From the NCBI GenBank assembly GCA_902524595.1, contig CABZDS010000003.1, positions 1-64,000 on the forward strand: DNA of 64,000 nucleotides, in the 5' to 3' direction. The position numbers and the translations under genes are program-made. Positions 34,424 through 39,544 of the stretch are shown here, piece after piece. The stretch comes from an uncultured Pelagibacteraceae bacterium (lineage in GTDB: Bacteria; Pseudomonadota; Alphaproteobacteria; Pelagibacterales; Pelagibacteraceae). Each line of letters starts with the position of its first letter. Position 1 is the first letter of the stretch. The notes beneath the pieces are model-generated. The model made no database searches. It was not told the origin of the DNA and was given only the letters and a program-made list of their open reading frames with translations.

Positions 34424-36862
34424 ATGAAAAAAATATTTTTAATATTTTTATATATTTTATTAATTCAATCAGATGTTTTAGCATTTACTTTTAAACAATC
34501 ATCAGCAGATATTCAGAGTACATCAAATTCAATTAGAGGTATAAATTTTAAACCTGATGGTACTAAAATGTATATTACTGAAAGTGAAAATGATACAATT
34601 CTTCAATATTCATTAAGTACAGCTTATGATTTAAGTACAATGTCCTTGGATGCAGCAACATCCATATCGGCAGCAGACTTGGCTCATGCTATAGAATTTA
34701 ATTCAGATGGTACCAAAATGTTTATTATCGATAATAAAAATAATAAGGTCGAGGAATATACATTGAGTACTGCTTGGGATACCACTGATATAACTCATAA
34801 TGGGGATTATAGTATACCAACTGAAGATGAACCAAGAGGAATAGATTTTAATTCAGATGGCACTAAACTTTTTGTGATAGGTAAAGAAACTGACAGAGTA
34901 CGTTCGTGGACACTAGCAACAGCTTTTGATATAGATAGCGGAAAGTCAGGTGCAAATTCTTCAGATCGTACTAATAGTTATGAAAATAATTCAAGAAATT
35001 TGCAGTTTAATTCTGATGGAACCGTGATTTATATTGCTGGGTCTGATGATGATGAGATAAACAAACTTACATTAAGCACAGCTTATGATACTAGTTCTTC
35101 TTCATTAGATACTTCTCAAACAGCTACTACTTATGATGTAAGTGCTCAATCGAATGAAATGAGGGGCTTTGTATTTATTGACAATTCTAGCGTTACTTCC
35201 TTAGGCCATGCTGCAAAGTTCTTTATTACAGATGATATAAGTTCTGGAGCTAATACAATTAAACATTATTTTATAAATGCAGATCCAACTTTGTCTTCCT
35301 GTTCACCCGCAGATGGAGCTACAGGGGTTGGGCTTAATGATAATATTGTGCTTACTTTCAGCGAGATTGTAGATGCAGAAAGCGGAAATGTAGTTATAAA
35401 AAAATCATCAGATGACTCAGTTTTTGAGTCAATAGATATCACAGGTTCAAAAGTTTCTGGAACAGGGACAACTGTAATTACTATAAATCCTACAGAAACA
35501 TTTGTAATAGACACTGATTATTACATAACAATCGATGCATCAGCTTTTGATGATGTAGATAGCGCTTCGTATACAGGTATCAATGACTCAACAACTTGCA
35601 ATTTTACTGCTGGTCAAACTAACCCTCTTTTGGATGATAAAGATCTTATAGGAGCTATAGAAGGCCAAGTAGAGATGTCACATCGAGTTATTAGACAAAC
35701 AACAACTACAGTAATGCATCGAATTGAATGGTTAAGAAGACATAAAGATAGAGAAAATTTAACAAACCAAAATATTAATTTTCAATTTTCTGATACAATG
35801 TTTTCATCTATTTTAAAAGCAATCTCAATATCTAACAAAAAAGAGTCAATAGATAAAAATTTATCCAATAATTGGTTTCTTTGGAGTGAAGGAGATATAA
35901 GTATTGGAAAATCTGGAATTAAACAGGGTCTATCATCTTCAGCAAAAAAAGCAGATACAAATGGAATAACCATTGGAGCAGATAATAGATTAAATTCAAA
36001 CAAAATGTATGGTCTTGCACTTAGATTTGGTGAAGATGATATTGAAGTTGGCTCTTCTGGAACTACGATAGATACAGATGCATACAGCTTAAGTTTGTAT
36101 GGAACTTTATCTTCAAAAGACAATAATTTTTTGGATGGTATACTAGGAATGAGCACTTTAAAGTCTGATCATATAAGAAAGAAAAATTCTGATACGCTAA
36201 CTGGCAAAAGGGATGGTAAACAAATATTTAGTTCAATCAACTTAAGTAAATTATTTTATAAAGATGATTTTAATTTTAATCCAACTGCAAGAATTGATTT
36301 TGGGTATACAGAATTGGGTGGTTACAGCGAAAGAGGAAAAAATGCTTTAATTTATGACAAGCATGAAATTTTAACAGGAATAACTTCTATCGGAATGTTA
36401 TTTGATAATATTAATCAGTTCAAAAAAGGGATTATATTAAAAAAAATAGCTCGATTAGAATATAGTGCTGATTTTAGCCCTTCATCAAATACAAAACTTT
36501 CATATCTATCAGATCCAGCGACAGATTATAATTTGACTGTTGGTAATGAAGCAAGTCACAACCTTAGAGCAGGTTTAGGGTTTGATCTTTCTACAGATAA
36601 TGGTTTTTCTGTTATAGCTAATTACGAAAGATTTCAAAAAAAAGATTCTGGTCACACGGATACCATGTATTTTACTGCAGGCTGGATATCAAATAAAAAA
36701 ACTCAATATGCTCTAACTTTAAACGGTATAAATAATATTTTTACAGAATTTAGTGTAAGTAAAAATATTAATAATTATAATCTTAAATTTAATATTAATT
36801 CTGATTTACTTAACGAAAATGAAAATCAAACAGCAACTTTATTTGTAAATAAAAATTTTTAA
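34424..36862 (+). CDS. Propeller-repeat autotransporter-like surface protein with Ig-like domain (paralogue B, islet cargo)
   Basis: An 812-residue predicted secreted protein. The signal peptide ends near residue 20 (SDVLA|FT). Four regular propeller blocks (F-N-S/P-DGTKM/L-Y/F-I) with QYSLSTAYDLST-type tails fill residues ~38-270. An SbsA/Big_5-like Ig domain (SPADGATGVGLNDNIVLTFS onward) spans ~290-393. The linker VMHRIEWLRRHKDRENLTNQ (~430-449) and a ~330-residue autotransporter-type beta-barrel ending in Phe follow. The linker and barrel closely match paralogue A at 28140-30410, while the propeller is tidier and the Ig domain is extra. It is the sole cargo of the tRNA-Leu islet. It may present a binding head at the cell surface; ligand unknown. 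Confidence 0.75.
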   Translation: MKKIFLIFLYILLIQSDVLAFTFKQSSADIQSTSNSIRGINFKPDGTKMYITESENDTILQYSLSTAYDLSTMSLDAATSISAADLAHAIEFNSDGTKMFIIDNKNNKVEEYTLSTAWDTTDITHNGDYSIPTEDEPRGIDFNSDGTKLFVIGKETDRVRSWTLATAFDIDSGKSGANSSDRTNSYENNSRNLQFNSDGTVIYIAGSDDDEINKLTLSTAYDTSSSSLDTSQTATTYDVSAQSNEMRGFVFIDNSSVTSLGHAAKFFITDDISSGANTIKHYFINADPTLSSCSPADGATGVGLNDNIVLTFSEIVDAESGNVVIKKSSDDSVFESIDITGSKVSGTGTTVITINPTETFVIDTDYYITIDASAFDDVDSASYTGINDSTTCNFTAGQTNPLLDDKDLIGAIEGQVEMSHRVIRQTTTTVMHRIEWLRRHKDRENLTNQNINFQFSDTMFSSILKAISISNKKESIDKNLSNNWFLWSEGDISIGKSGIKQGLSSSAKKADTNGITIGADNRLNSNKMYGLALRFGEDDIEVGSSGTTIDTDAYSLSLYGTLSSKDNNFLDGILGMSTLKSDHIRKKNSDTLTGKRDGKQIFSSINLSKLFYKDDFNFNPTARIDFGYTELGGYSERGKNALIYDKHEILTGITSIGMLFDNINQFKKGIILKKIARLEYSADFSPSSNTKLSYLSDPATDYNLTVGNEASHNLRAGLGFDLSTDNGFSVIANYERFQKKDSGHTDTMYFTAGWISNKKTQYALTLNGINNIFTEFSVSKNINNYNLKFNINSDLLNENENQTATLFVNKNF

Positions 36863-37164: not shown

Positions 37165-37935
37165 ATGGTTAATCCTTTTATAGTTTCTGATAAAAATACT
37201 AGATCATCCAAAATTAAAAGAGCGGTTTTAAAAAGAATAAAGACGCATTCTTTGTCAAAATCTAATGTAATAATTGTGATAGGTGGTGACGGCTTTATGC
37301 TCGAAACATTAAAAAAATATAACAAATACAATAAACCATTTTATGGAATAAATTCAGGAAACTATGGTTTCCTCATGAATAAATTTTCTAAAAAAACAAA
37401 CTATAACAAGTTAATTAAAGGAAGATTGGTCTCTATATCTCCATTAGAAATGAGTGTAAAAAATAAATCAAACATAAAAAAAAAATGTATTGCAATTAAC
37501 GAAATTTCAGTTCTAAGACAAAGTAGACAAACTGCATCTTTAACTATTCTAAATGGTAAAAAACAAATTATTAAACATTTAATTTCTGATGGTGTATTGG
37601 TATCAACACCCGCTGGTAGTACAGCTTATAATCTTTCTGTTCATGGTCCTATTCTCAGTATAGATTCTAATAAGTTATCTATAAGTCCTATAAGTGCTTT
37701 TAGACCTAGGAGGTGGAGGGGAAAAATAGTAAGTGATAAATCTAAAATTACAATTAAGAATTTAAATTATATAAAGAGACCCATAAGTGCTGTTGCTGAT
37801 AATATTGAGGTAAGAAATGCAAAATTAATATCAATTAAAACTAATAAAAAAATTAAATTTAATTTAATATTTGATAAAAATAGAAGTCTTCAGAAAAAAA
37901 TTAAAATCGAACAGATAAGAAATGAAATAAATTAA
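37165..37935 (+). CDS. nadK: NAD kinase
   Basis: From the ATG at 37165 the protein has 256 residues. The catalytic GGDG motif is at residues 40-43, then AINEISVLR near 111 and SDGVLVSTPAGSTAYNLS near 144-161, the substrate loop of NAD kinases. It phosphorylates NAD to NADP with ATP. An in-frame GTG at 37126 lies inside tRNA-Leu and is rejected as start. The ATG is 3 nt after the tRNA, so there is no Shine-Dalgarno outside the tRNA and translation must use a leaderless-like end after tRNA processing. The stop codon touches the tRNA-Thr islet core. The gene is therefore squeezed between two integration sites. Confidence 0.93.
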   Translation: MVNPFIVSDKNTRSSKIKRAVLKRIKTHSLSKSNVIIVIGGDGFMLETLKKYNKYNKPFYGINSGNYGFLMNKFSKKTNYNKLIKGRLVSISPLEMSVKNKSNIKKKCIAINEISVLRQSRQTASLTILNGKKQIIKHLISDGVLVSTPAGSTAYNLSVHGPILSIDSNKLSISPISAFRPRRWRGKIVSDKSKITIKNLNYIKRPISAVADNIEVRNAKLISIKTNKKIKFNLIFDKNRSLQKKIKIEQIRNEIN

Positions 37936-37982
37936 TGGTGCCCCCGCACGGACTCGAACCGCGGACCTATTGATTACAAATC
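37935..37982 (-). repeat. attL-like 48-bp copy of the tRNA-Thr 3' half
   Basis: Identical over 48 bp to 39468-39515, which is the 3' half of the intact tRNA-Thr from the anticodon loop to the CCA end (reverse strand). Beyond 37982 the sequence diverges. This is the classic footprint left by a tyrosine recombinase that targets tRNA 3' halves: the distal copy is the original host half, displaced by the insertion. Confidence 0.92.
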
Positions 37983-38040
37983 TTGTATCATTGATTAGAT
38001 AGATATGGTTTTGCAATACTTATAAACAATAATCACTAAT

Positions 38041-38062
38041 CTCGACACACGTACGACACAAT
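38041..38062 (+). repeat. Left arm-type repeats of the tRNA-Thr islet (2 x 11 nt)
   Basis: CTCGACACACG then TACGACACAAT, 11-nt period, 58 bp inside the core and 15 bp before the cargo GTG start. Same orientation as the right-end trio. They may also overlap the cargo promoter, so a recombinase bound here could repress cargo expression (inference). Confidence 0.7.
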
Positions 38063-38076
38063 GGTAGAATTTTTTT

Positions 38077-38982
38077 GTGAAATTAGAATTTAAAAAGGGT
38101 TCAAAGTACTCAAGAAAAGATATTGGTTGGGTCTGTTATCCAGATAAGGGAAGACCTGCTGGTGGTGATTGGGATACTGGTTATGTTCGAGTTGAAGATA
38201 ACCTAATAATCTTTATGAACATCGGTGTTCCAGGAACTACTGAACACGATTTTGACAATCATTATGACCATTCAAAGGGAGTAATTGTTTGGTATGGAAA
38301 ACCAAAGTCCCACTCTCAACAACCAACTTTTCAAAAGTTGTTATCTGGGGAAATGACTCCACATTTTTTTGCAAGATGGGATAACAAAGATCCGCAATTT
38401 GCATATTTAGGTATTGGCAAAGTTGTTAGCTATAAAGATGGAGTACCTTGTTTAGATGGAAATAAAAAAGAAGTTGAGACAATAGAATTAAAATTAACTG
38501 TTGAAGATTCTGGTGAAATAATTCCAATTCAAAATCAAACAAATGTTGATAAACAAAAAGATAGTTTAGTAGATAATAATTTAGTTCCAAAGTCTTCGTT
38601 CCTACTAGAGAAACATCTTGAAGATTATATTATTAAGAATTGGACCAATATCGAGTTAAATGATGATTATGATATTCATAGAGAAAACAATAAATTATGC
38701 ACACAGTATTCAACAGGTTCAGGACCATTAGATATTTTAGCAATTAGCAAAGATAAGAATGAATTCTTAGTAATTGAATTAAAAAAGGGTAGAGCTAGCG
38801 ATGTAGTTTTAGGACAAATACAAAGATATATGGGTCATATAAAAAATAATTTAGCTGGTGGCAAAAACGTAAAAGGGCTTATAATTGCATTAGAGGACGA
38901 TAAGAATTTAAGAGATGCATTGTCTGTTGCTCCAAATATAAGGTTTATGAAATACGAAGTATCGTTTAAACTGGTAGGATAA
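38077..38982 (+). CDS. Two-domain endonuclease: DUF3427-like N-domain plus NucS-like PD-(D/E)xK C-domain
   Basis: A 301-residue protein starting at GTG (38077); the ATG at 38061 is out of frame. Residues ~4-115 (KGSKYSRKDIG... to FAYLGIGK) resemble the DUF3427-type domain attached to restriction-like helicases and nucleases, a probable DNA-recognition module. Residues ~175-300 form a PD-(D/E)xK nuclease: E178/E182, D219 in GSGPLDIL, E234 and K236 in VIELKKG, and Q247 in GQIQRY, as in NucS-like nucleases. It could be a single-protein (type IV-like) restriction enzyme acting on foreign or modified DNA. It is the main cargo of the tRNA-Thr islet. No methyltransferase partner is present. Function is inferred. 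Confidence 0.75.
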   Translation: MKLEFKKGSKYSRKDIGWVCYPDKGRPAGGDWDTGYVRVEDNLIIFMNIGVPGTTEHDFDNHYDHSKGVIVWYGKPKSHSQQPTFQKLLSGEMTPHFFARWDNKDPQFAYLGIGKVVSYKDGVPCLDGNKKEVETIELKLTVEDSGEIIPIQNQTNVDKQKDSLVDNNLVPKSSFLLEKHLEDYIIKNWTNIELNDDYDIHRENNKLCTQYSTGSGPLDILAISKDKNEFLVIELKKGRASDVVLGQIQRYMGHIKNNLAGGKNVKGLIIALEDDKNLRDALSVAPNIRFMKYEVSFKLVG

Positions 38983-39363
38983 ATGAAAAAAATTTTAGGG
39001 ATTGTGGTTCTGGGTTTATTTTTACAGGGTTGTGGAGGCGCTGGAATAAGTTTTACTACAGATAAAAATCGATATGTTAATACACCCGAGTCTACTTTAT
39101 GCATTGATTACTATGAAGCTTTGATAACTGGAAACATACACTCTACCCCTAGAAGAGAAATGATTGAAGAGCGTGGGATTGATTGTTCGCCTTACAAAGA
39201 AGAGGGTATAATAAAAGGTGAGGCAACAAATGCGTATTATGAAAAATTAAAAGGTAATCTCGAACATCTTGGAAGCAATACTACATCTAATAATTTAAAA
39301 ACTAGACCAGTTAATTGTTCTACAAGAAAAGTTGGTGGATATAACAGAACCTTTTGTTACTAA
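38983..39363 (+). CDS. Small lipoprotein of unknown function (islet cargo)
   Basis: A 126-residue protein with a lipoprotein signal peptide: MKKILGIVVLGLFLQGC, lipobox LQGC with Cys17 as the lipidation site, followed by GGAG. The mature part (~110 residues) is hydrophilic with four further cysteines and no family I recognise. The ATG follows the nuclease stop with no gap, so the two are translationally coupled. A cell-envelope partner of a cytosolic nuclease is odd; it might be an entry-exclusion or surface-modifying factor, but nothing in the sequence proves this. Confidence 0.7.
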   Translation: MKKILGIVVLGLFLQGCGGAGISFTTDKNRYVNTPESTLCIDYYEALITGNIHSTPRREMIEERGIDCSPYKEEGIIKGEATNAYYEKLKGNLEHLGSNTTSNNLKTRPVNCSTRKVGGYNRTFCY

Positions 39364-39382
39364 GTTAAACGACTACTTGATC

Positions 39383-39413
39383 ACGACACTACCTCGACAC
39401 ACTCTCGACACAA
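39383..39413 (+). repeat. Right arm-type repeats of the tRNA-Thr islet (3 x 11 nt)
   Basis: CGACAC at 39384, 39395 and 39406, i.e. three tandem 11-nt units (CACGACACTAC, CTCGACACACT, CTCGACACAAT), starting 20 bp after the lipoprotein stop and ending ~55 bp before the tRNA-Thr core. Confidence 0.72.
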
Positions 39414-39467
39414 TAGTTTAAATTTTTTAGTTTTAGCAAAAATAATTAGTGTTGATTTTATTGAGTG

Positions 39468-39515
39468 ATGGTGCCCCCGCACGGACTCGAACCGCGGACC
39501 TATTGATTACAAATC
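39468..39515 (-). repeat. attR-like 48-bp core within the intact tRNA-Thr
   Basis: Identical to 37935-37982. It is the 3' half of tRNA-Thr, supplied by the element to restore the gene after integration. The core runs from the anticodon loop to one base past the CCA end. Confidence 0.92.
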
Positions 39516-39544
39516 AATTGCTCTACCAGCTGAGCTACAAGGGC
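39469..39544 (-). tRNA. tRNA-Thr (anticodon UGU)
   Basis: A 76-nt reverse-strand tRNA: acceptor GCCCTTG / CGGGGGC (with G-U pairs), D-arm GCTCAGCTGGTAGAGC, anticodon loop TTTGTAA with TGT, T-loop TTCGAGT, encoded CCA. It decodes ACA. It is the integration target of the 1.5-kb islet: the 3' half is duplicated at 37935-37982. Confidence 0.97.

Follow-up and report, generated by a model that had tools for sequence, protein, structure and literature searches.

The stretch analysed here, called the window throughout, comprises 64,000 nt of contig CABZDS010000003.1 (assembly GCA_902524595.1) from an uncultured Pelagibacteraceae bacterium, and between its nadK gene and an intact tRNA-Thr gene lies a small islet of two open reading frames (ORFs). 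The window belongs to Pelagibacter (SAR11), its nearest matches being single-cell genomes of Pelagibacteraceae. As a 48-bp direct repeat marks both borders of the islet, the element extends over positions 37935-39467 and measures 1,533 bp. A sequence-only reading of this DNA had given the unit as 38077-39363; both ORFs do lie at these positions, which hold the cargo only and not the flanks of the element itself. The tRNA half-repeat whose presence it had suggested looking for was found at full identity. The features of the cassette are as follows, from left to right.

37935-37982, reverse strand: displaced 3' half of tRNA-Thr, the attL-type core at the left border, identical at 48/48 nt to 39468-39515.
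38041-38063, forward strand: left inner repeats CTCGACACACGTACGACACAATG, with two CGACAC units (38043 and 38054) 11 bp apart; candidate integrase arm-type site.
38065-38070, forward strand: -10-like TAGAAT, 6 nt ahead of the start codon; candidate promoter for leaderless transcription of the cargo.
38077-38982, forward strand: cargo gene 1, 301 amino acids (aa), GTG start; DUF3427 joined to a NucS_C PD-(D/E)xK nuclease.
38983-39017, forward strand: shared junction block ATGAAAAAA.TTTTAGGGAT.GTGGTTCTGGGTTT, the start and signal-peptide codons, which trails gene 1 whatever gene comes next.
38983-39363, forward strand: cargo gene 2, a lipoprotein-like ORF of 126 aa, ATG start.
39384-39414, forward strand: right inner repeats CGACAC-N5-CGACAC-N5-CGACACAAT, with units at 39384, 39395 and 39406 in an 11-bp period; candidate integrase arm-type site.
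39468-39515, reverse strand: second core copy within the intact tRNA-Thr, the attR-type core at the right border, completing the 48-bp direct repeat.
39469-39544, reverse strand: intact tRNA-Thr (TGT), as called by ARAGORN.

The islet encodes two ORFs only, neither of them a recombinase, and no integrase or transfer genes, and the start codon of gene 1 stands 95 nt past the tRNA half. In the window nadK ends 14 nt from the tRNA half copy and 1,547 nt from the intact tRNA. At five empty sites of relatives with NadK 91-95% identical (L055, L057, L059, L061 and L063), nadK stops 14-17 nt short of the intact tRNA. As the spacing of nadK to the half copy matches its spacing to the intact tRNA at the empty sites, the cassette was inserted precisely at tRNA-Thr.

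The arrangement recurs among Pelagibacter. We examined 80 tRNA-Thr sites and found at least one tRNA half copy at 39 of them, which is not an unbiased frequency because the sites were chosen mainly by match to the window flank and some were added for a known second copy. Twelve sites carried units in tandem, up to four at one site; about 14 were clean and empty, nadK adjoining the tRNA, and the remaining single-core sites held extra DNA. The site census and the loci reached via the nuclease together gave 61 distinct units of 0.4-7.7 kb, mostly 0.4-2.5 kb, with 49 of the 61 below 3 kb. In 38 of these 49 smaller units the first ORF begins 88-97 nt past the tRNA half, just after the left repeats. 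The leaders of about 50 cassettes share a conserved TG-R-TARANT motif (-10-like TAGAAT or ATAAAG) and a T-run, followed by the start codon.

The inner repeats differ from unit to unit. The CGACAC class of left repeats seen in the window also occurs in L003, L018/L116, L022/L115 and L111_1, and other units carry CTGACAACAAT, GCGTCACA, TACACACTAT or CCGCACTATGTCCGCA; larger units have GACTACA, TTCACTTA and others. Within a unit, the left and right repeats match each other: over the 61 units the longest common string averaged 10.2 nt against 7.4 ± 0.21 in permutations, none of 5000 reaching the observed value. Repeats matched in this way look as arm-type integrase sites would. Repeats of a similar kind (CCAGCACAAGACCAGCACAT) lie ahead of cargo with the shared junction block near tRNA-Leu(TAA) in two genomes (L217/L225 of G003 and L223 of G074); tRNA-Thr may therefore not be the only tRNA gene that the cassette system uses.

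The 22-nt core was seen in 31 viral contigs, nearly always as part of a complete tRNA gene; in a single contig, L206 (IMGVR_UViG_3300017731_002668), it lies outside any tRNA gene and has such repeats on both sides. Cassette L125_2 has a left arm that shares 17 identical nt with the right repeats of this contig (CCGCACTATGTCCGCAA), and the right arm of L111_4 shares 16 with the left repeats of the contig (CCGCAATCTGTCCGCA); in 300 shuffles of the L206 arms the longest identity was 14. This marine phage contig, in which core and flanking repeats make up an attP of like build, encodes a Phage_integrase protein with its ATG 102 nt past the core, as well as the small subunit of a terminase. The core plus two arm units, used as a search pattern in viral contigs, found L206 alone. 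Once integrated, L206 would have a half tRNA followed by an arm and the integrase gene, and the other arm ahead of the intact tRNA. The cassettes are laid out in this way, except that cargo stands at the place of the integrase gene.

Other candidate movers were set aside. The triple CGACAC pattern gave 35 matches in viral contigs, none near a tRNA-Thr core, and these are chance or unrelated. Phage records searched with the tRNA-Thr region showed, among the matches listed, 60-90% identity to phage-encoded tRNAs. A 7.7-kb unit at tRNA-Thr, L062 (G172:C72), has its own integrase with Arm-DNA-bind_3 and Phage_integrase domains and arms TTGACTACA; as a common helper this integrase was rejected, having no relatives in phages or viral contigs and occurring in 3 of 250 genomes. 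The same unit also carries a 768-aa protein that looks like a primase by eye, together with small genes, which gives it a satellite-like appearance. The assembly of the window, 88% complete, has a single PF00589 tyrosine recombinase (L170, G000:C7:42420-42944) without an arm-binding domain, which makes it ill-suited to many arm classes, and it was likewise rejected as the mover. This recombinase is about 317-325 aa long with a SAM-like N-terminus, and may be Xer or another.

The explanation that we find likely is that 37935-39467 is a non-autonomous cassette made of the attL and attR halves of a tRNA-Thr phage or satellite, with cargo, including a type IV-like nuclease, at the place of the integrase. 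Such att-flanked cassettes are probably moved in trans by phage integrases. In the mechanism that we propose, a tyrosine integrase from an infecting or resident phage or satellite would bind the 11-bp-phased arm repeats and the 48-bp core, and would insert or excise the cassette at tRNA-Thr with restoration of the tRNA. Expression of the first cargo gene would come from the fixed ~94-nt leader, in which the arm repeats and the -10 element precede the start codon; the -10 element presumably drives a leaderless transcript. The first gene would yield a single-chain, ATP-independent type IV-like nuclease whose DUF3427 part reads modified DNA and whose NucS-type PD-(D/E)xK domain cuts it, and the lipoprotein would be a second cargo, exchangeable on its own and joined at the shared signal-peptide block.

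Several points weigh against this explanation. The phage link consists of one contig, L206, which belongs to another arm class, and for the CGACAC class of the window no helper was found in the viral contigs searched, where the exact CGACAC-arm pattern gave 0 matches. The arms are poorly matched in L092_1, L109 and L131_1, and neither circular forms nor junction reads were seen. L062-like integrases are rare, and the cassettes could therefore also spread by homologous recombination in their conserved flanks. On the side of the cargo, DUF3427 is a reader by literature proposal, its part of the structure model was unusable with a predicted local distance difference test (pLDDT) score of about 30, and much of what other units carry is non-defence, including pilins, a globin, a protease-like protein and many unknown secreted proteins.

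A rival account is a different origin, in which the units would be fossil cis-mobilizable elements (CIMEs), that is, decayed prophages or satellites of which the att ends and some cargo are left and which spread only by homologous recombination between the nadK and tRNA-Thr/rlmB flanks. An integrase absent from nearly all units, the scarcity of L062-type integrases, the one tyrosine recombinase of the host, the mismatched arms of some units and the conserved site flanks all fit such fossils. However, decay is not expected either to give unrelated cargo the same leader, in which ~95 nt separate the core from the first codon, or to leave the left and right repeats matched across many classes, and clean empty sites exist alongside tandem stacks; we regard fossil elements as an unlikely account of the cassettes.

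The preferred reading, a cassette mobilised in trans, gives its first cargo gene a role in restriction. The sequence-only reading had described gene 1 as a DUF3427-like domain joined to a NucS-like PD-(D/E)xK nuclease, and Pfam supports both parts over their cut-offs, with DUF3427 at residues 4-141 (30.0 bits, cut-off 27.7) and NucS_C (PF01939) at residues 206-274 (30.7 bits, cut-off 24). The residues D219, E234, K236 and Q247 are where it placed them and are invariant in every aligned homologue, even at only about 30% identity. PDC-S02, a candidate-defence model of PADLOC, matches gene 1 with an E-value of 1.3e-57, over residues 160-300 only. By sequence and fold the catalytic domain is closest to NucS/EndoMS (2vld, 5gke): a structure model, the second one made and usable only for residues ~174-293 (pLDDT mostly 65-92), superposed on EndoMS/NucS (5gke) with a Z score of 13.2 at 2.6 Å over 113 residues, and the next unrelated structures, McrC included, reached Z of at most 8.6. 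A model built from ten near-identical nuclease sequences was discarded (pLDDT 39.6).

The N-terminal part is exchanged among relatives of the nuclease. In L015, L016 and L174 the catalytic domain is fused to MrcB_N (over the Pfam cut-off), and in L014, L176 and L177 a third N-terminal domain (MKQYxRVMLGR...GFIGADF...) is fused to a NucS-type nuclease; this domain, with no Pfam match in L014, is possibly an unnamed reader. In another alphaproteobacterium (L175), a DUF3427-like domain with a Pfam score below the cut-off precedes a C-terminus that is HNH-like by eye. Searched against viral contigs and phage genomes, the nuclease itself gave no match, and a broad alignment as query retrieved two distant contigs.

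DUF3427 has been proposed as the modified-DNA reader of SauUSI (PMC3874153; PMC7159879), and the islet encodes no methyltransferase. The earlier suggestion of a single-chain restriction-like nuclease that works without a methyltransferase and recognises modified or structured DNA is in keeping with this, as gene 1 has the type IV trait of a proposed reader fused to a nuclease. Our best guess, because a NucS-type catalytic domain is combined with swappable N-terminal domains and DUF3427 is a proposed reader, is that the protein acts as a single-chain modification-dependent (type IV-like) restriction enzyme, for which cleavage of modified DNA is plausible. It resembles SauUSI, Mrr and McrBC as well as PDC-S02 in its logic of reader plus nuclease, sharing DUF3427 with SauUSI and the catalytic domain with PDC-S02. 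It differs from the type IV enzymes in being a single chain without a helicase or NTPase, in having a NucS-type domain instead of PLD, and in the exchange of the N-terminal domain among relatives.

The nearness to NucS/EndoMS in sequence and fold would also suit a mismatch or repair enzyme rather than restriction, which would be compatible with the cassette. Against this, the protein scores 34.2 bits with the NCBIfam NucS equivalog NF003270 (a full-length model with the NucS N-terminal domain), far under its cut-off of 216; the N-terminus is DUF3427, for which relatives swap in MrcB_N or the third domain; and the full-length form is patchy, being present in 4 of 397 genomes, which ill fits a core repair gene. 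A role in repair is therefore improbable.

Within the cassette the nuclease is followed directly by gene 2, the TAA of gene 1 abutting its ATG (TAAATG). The zero gap claimed by the sequence-only reading is thus real; the lipoprotein identity depends on an LQGC lipobox read by eye only, and no convincing family match was obtained in Pfam, PADLOC or NCBIfam. The proposed coupling of the two genes did not hold. In G242/L116 a 98% identical lipoprotein sits beside a 118-aa first gene without the nuclease, and the nuclease has at least six downstream neighbours other than the lipoprotein of the window, or none: a 224-aa protein in L002, a 336-aa protein in L003, a NUMOD3 protein in L004, a 164-aa membrane-like protein in L005, another secreted protein in L009 and a 191-aa protein in L010. 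The nuclease DNA is 82-97% identical in other Pelagibacter, while nadK and rlmB are 73-80% identical there; in L002 and L003 it reaches 93-97%, the nadK of the hosts being 75-78% identical, and the 98% identical lipoprotein of L116 likewise has a host nadK at 75-78%, a contrast that speaks for transfer. The nuclease is spread over at least four arm classes (the window and L003; L002; L005 and L010; L004), and is found within larger elements (L006/L007) and at other places (L008, L009, L013).

The junction of the two genes is shared as well. Several second genes have their first ~35 nt in common (ATGAAAAAACTTTTAGGGATCGTGGTTCTGGG), and truncated stubs of the block persist ahead of other second genes in L004 and L005, which suggests that the block is a DNA seam for swapping second genes and not only a conserved signal peptide. 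As an observation, a 32-35 nt block encoding MKKLLGIVVLGL opens many unrelated second genes; besides 38983-39017 of the window it was located in L002, L003, L004, L005, L009, L010, L115, L217, L223, L224 and L227. As second cargo, the lipoprotein can be exchanged on its own and is no obligate partner of the nuclease. A dedicated two-part defence or exclusion module, for which the abutting ORFs in one islet would speak, is thus extremely improbable, given that the neighbour of the nuclease varies or is missing, that a nearly identical lipoprotein occurs without the nuclease and that the same abutting block goes with many unrelated second genes; nor did any evidence support DNA-entry surveillance combined with cleavage, or phage exclusion, by the pair. 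Small lipoprotein-like ORFs (NGCMTAQ...LCYDYF) in L019 and L020, one of them near the transfer-messenger RNA gene, are 36% identical over 80 aa to the lipoprotein of the window, with which they may form a wider SAR11 lipoprotein family.

The setting of the genes, which the sequence-only reading had proposed to check for mobile and defence neighbours, is a mobile-looking tRNA-Thr site rich in other nucleases. Other units carry stand-alone nucleases (the Mrr, MrcB_N-fused, DpnI-like and DUF4268 proteins among them), as seen in Mrr (L070), MrcB_N-NOV_C (L093), MrcB_N-HNH (L109), DpnI-like (L100_2), DUF4268/PDC-S11 (L125_2, L111_3), T5orf172 (L092_2) and Exo_endo_phos (L075_2) proteins, and large units an MmeI-type restriction-modification protein, ResIII/Mrr_cat helicases and an MkoA-like/PLD protein; these co-cargo proteins were chosen for an enzyme-like look and are not a random sample. 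When MrcB_N proteins were sampled without regard to site in 171 Pelagibacter genomes, four of six lay in or beside tRNA-Thr cassettes. Because the nucleases share the site with much non-defence cargo, it is a general gene-exchange site with many nucleases and no pure defence island. In L005, L085, L097, L100 and L111 several tandem pilin-like genes were noted, with a common N-terminus FTLIELLVVVAIIGILAAVGVVAYNGYT and divergent sequence after it.

Compared with known systems, the cassettes resemble CIMEs (PMC5704250) in being att-flanked, in lacking integration and transfer genes and in stacking in tandem at a tRNA gene, and the 48-bp tRNA-Thr repeat with the matched inner repeats would correspond to their attL/attR-type flanks. 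However, most of them measure 0.4-2.5 kb, and they hold one to three genes; their leader is standard, their arms fall into matched classes, their cargos are many, and about half of the genomes sampled carry them at this one site. As to the origin of CIMEs by decay of integrative and conjugative or integrative mobilizable elements, the leader resembles a phage attP/int region in one class, and no remnant genes of such elements were seen. Phage satellites (phage-inducible chromosomal islands, P4 and phage-inducible chromosomal minimalist islands, PICMI; PMC10803314) are similar in their chromosomal phage-type attachment sites, defence-type cargo and presumed helper dependence. Whereas known satellites encode their own integrase, and PICMI also alpA and a primase (PMC10803314), the cassette has neither an integrase nor regulator or replication genes of its own.

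Like the cassettes of integrons and of clusters of attC sites lacking integron-integrases (CALINs), and like miniature inverted-repeat transposable elements (MITEs; PMC11389934), they are small and recombinase-less, with movement in trans (probable for the cassettes here), tandem arrays and single-gene cargo as the points of likeness; their borders, in contrast, are a tRNA-Thr 3' half and phage-integrase-like arm repeats. No attC hairpins or transposon inverted repeats were seen at the borders, though no formal attC search was made. The cassettes would thus stand beside CIMEs, CALINs and MITEs as hitchers on the recombinase of another element. The additive flexible genomic islands of Methylopumilus, at which the last 20 bp of tRNA-Lys are repeated, and the tycheposons are likewise bounded by tRNA genes in streamlined planktonic bacteria (PMC10872708). 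Tycheposons are described there as 4-200 kb long with a tyrosine recombinase, as against 1.5 kb and no recombinase in the cassette, and arm repeats, a fixed leader and minimal single-gene cassettes do not figure in the parts of that source that were read. In the literature searched, which covered few subscription papers so that a prior description is possible, we found no account of tRNA-Thr cassettes in SAR11.

SAR11 bacteria have streamlined genomes that are seemingly poor in integrases, and yet they hold a flexible gene pool. If the cassette reading is true, minimal att-flanked cassettes at one tRNA would explain how defence and surface genes are traded in SAR11 at low DNA cost, and would provide a testable link between marine phage integrases and gene exchange in the host. 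More tentatively, as a close call that leans against, we offer the broader idea of an integron-like platform in SAR11, in which standardised cassettes of one to three genes, built as phage integration sites with cargo, would be moved by arm-matching integrases, so that phages would spread single-gene anti-phage enzymes and surface genes among the most abundant bacteria of the ocean. Such a platform would cover insertion, stacking and exchange at tRNA-Thr, and probably at other tRNAs. The rule of a half tRNA, arm repeats and a start codon at ~95 nt can be used to find more cargo, and the cassettes supply compact restriction-nuclease candidates with swappable N-terminal domains.

Outside the cassette, the window encodes at 34424-36862, beside the tRNA-Leu/nadK site, an 812-aa protein with repeated GTKMYI/STAYD-type segments, and a similar-looking protein of 715 aa lies within the first tRNA-Thr unit of L125.
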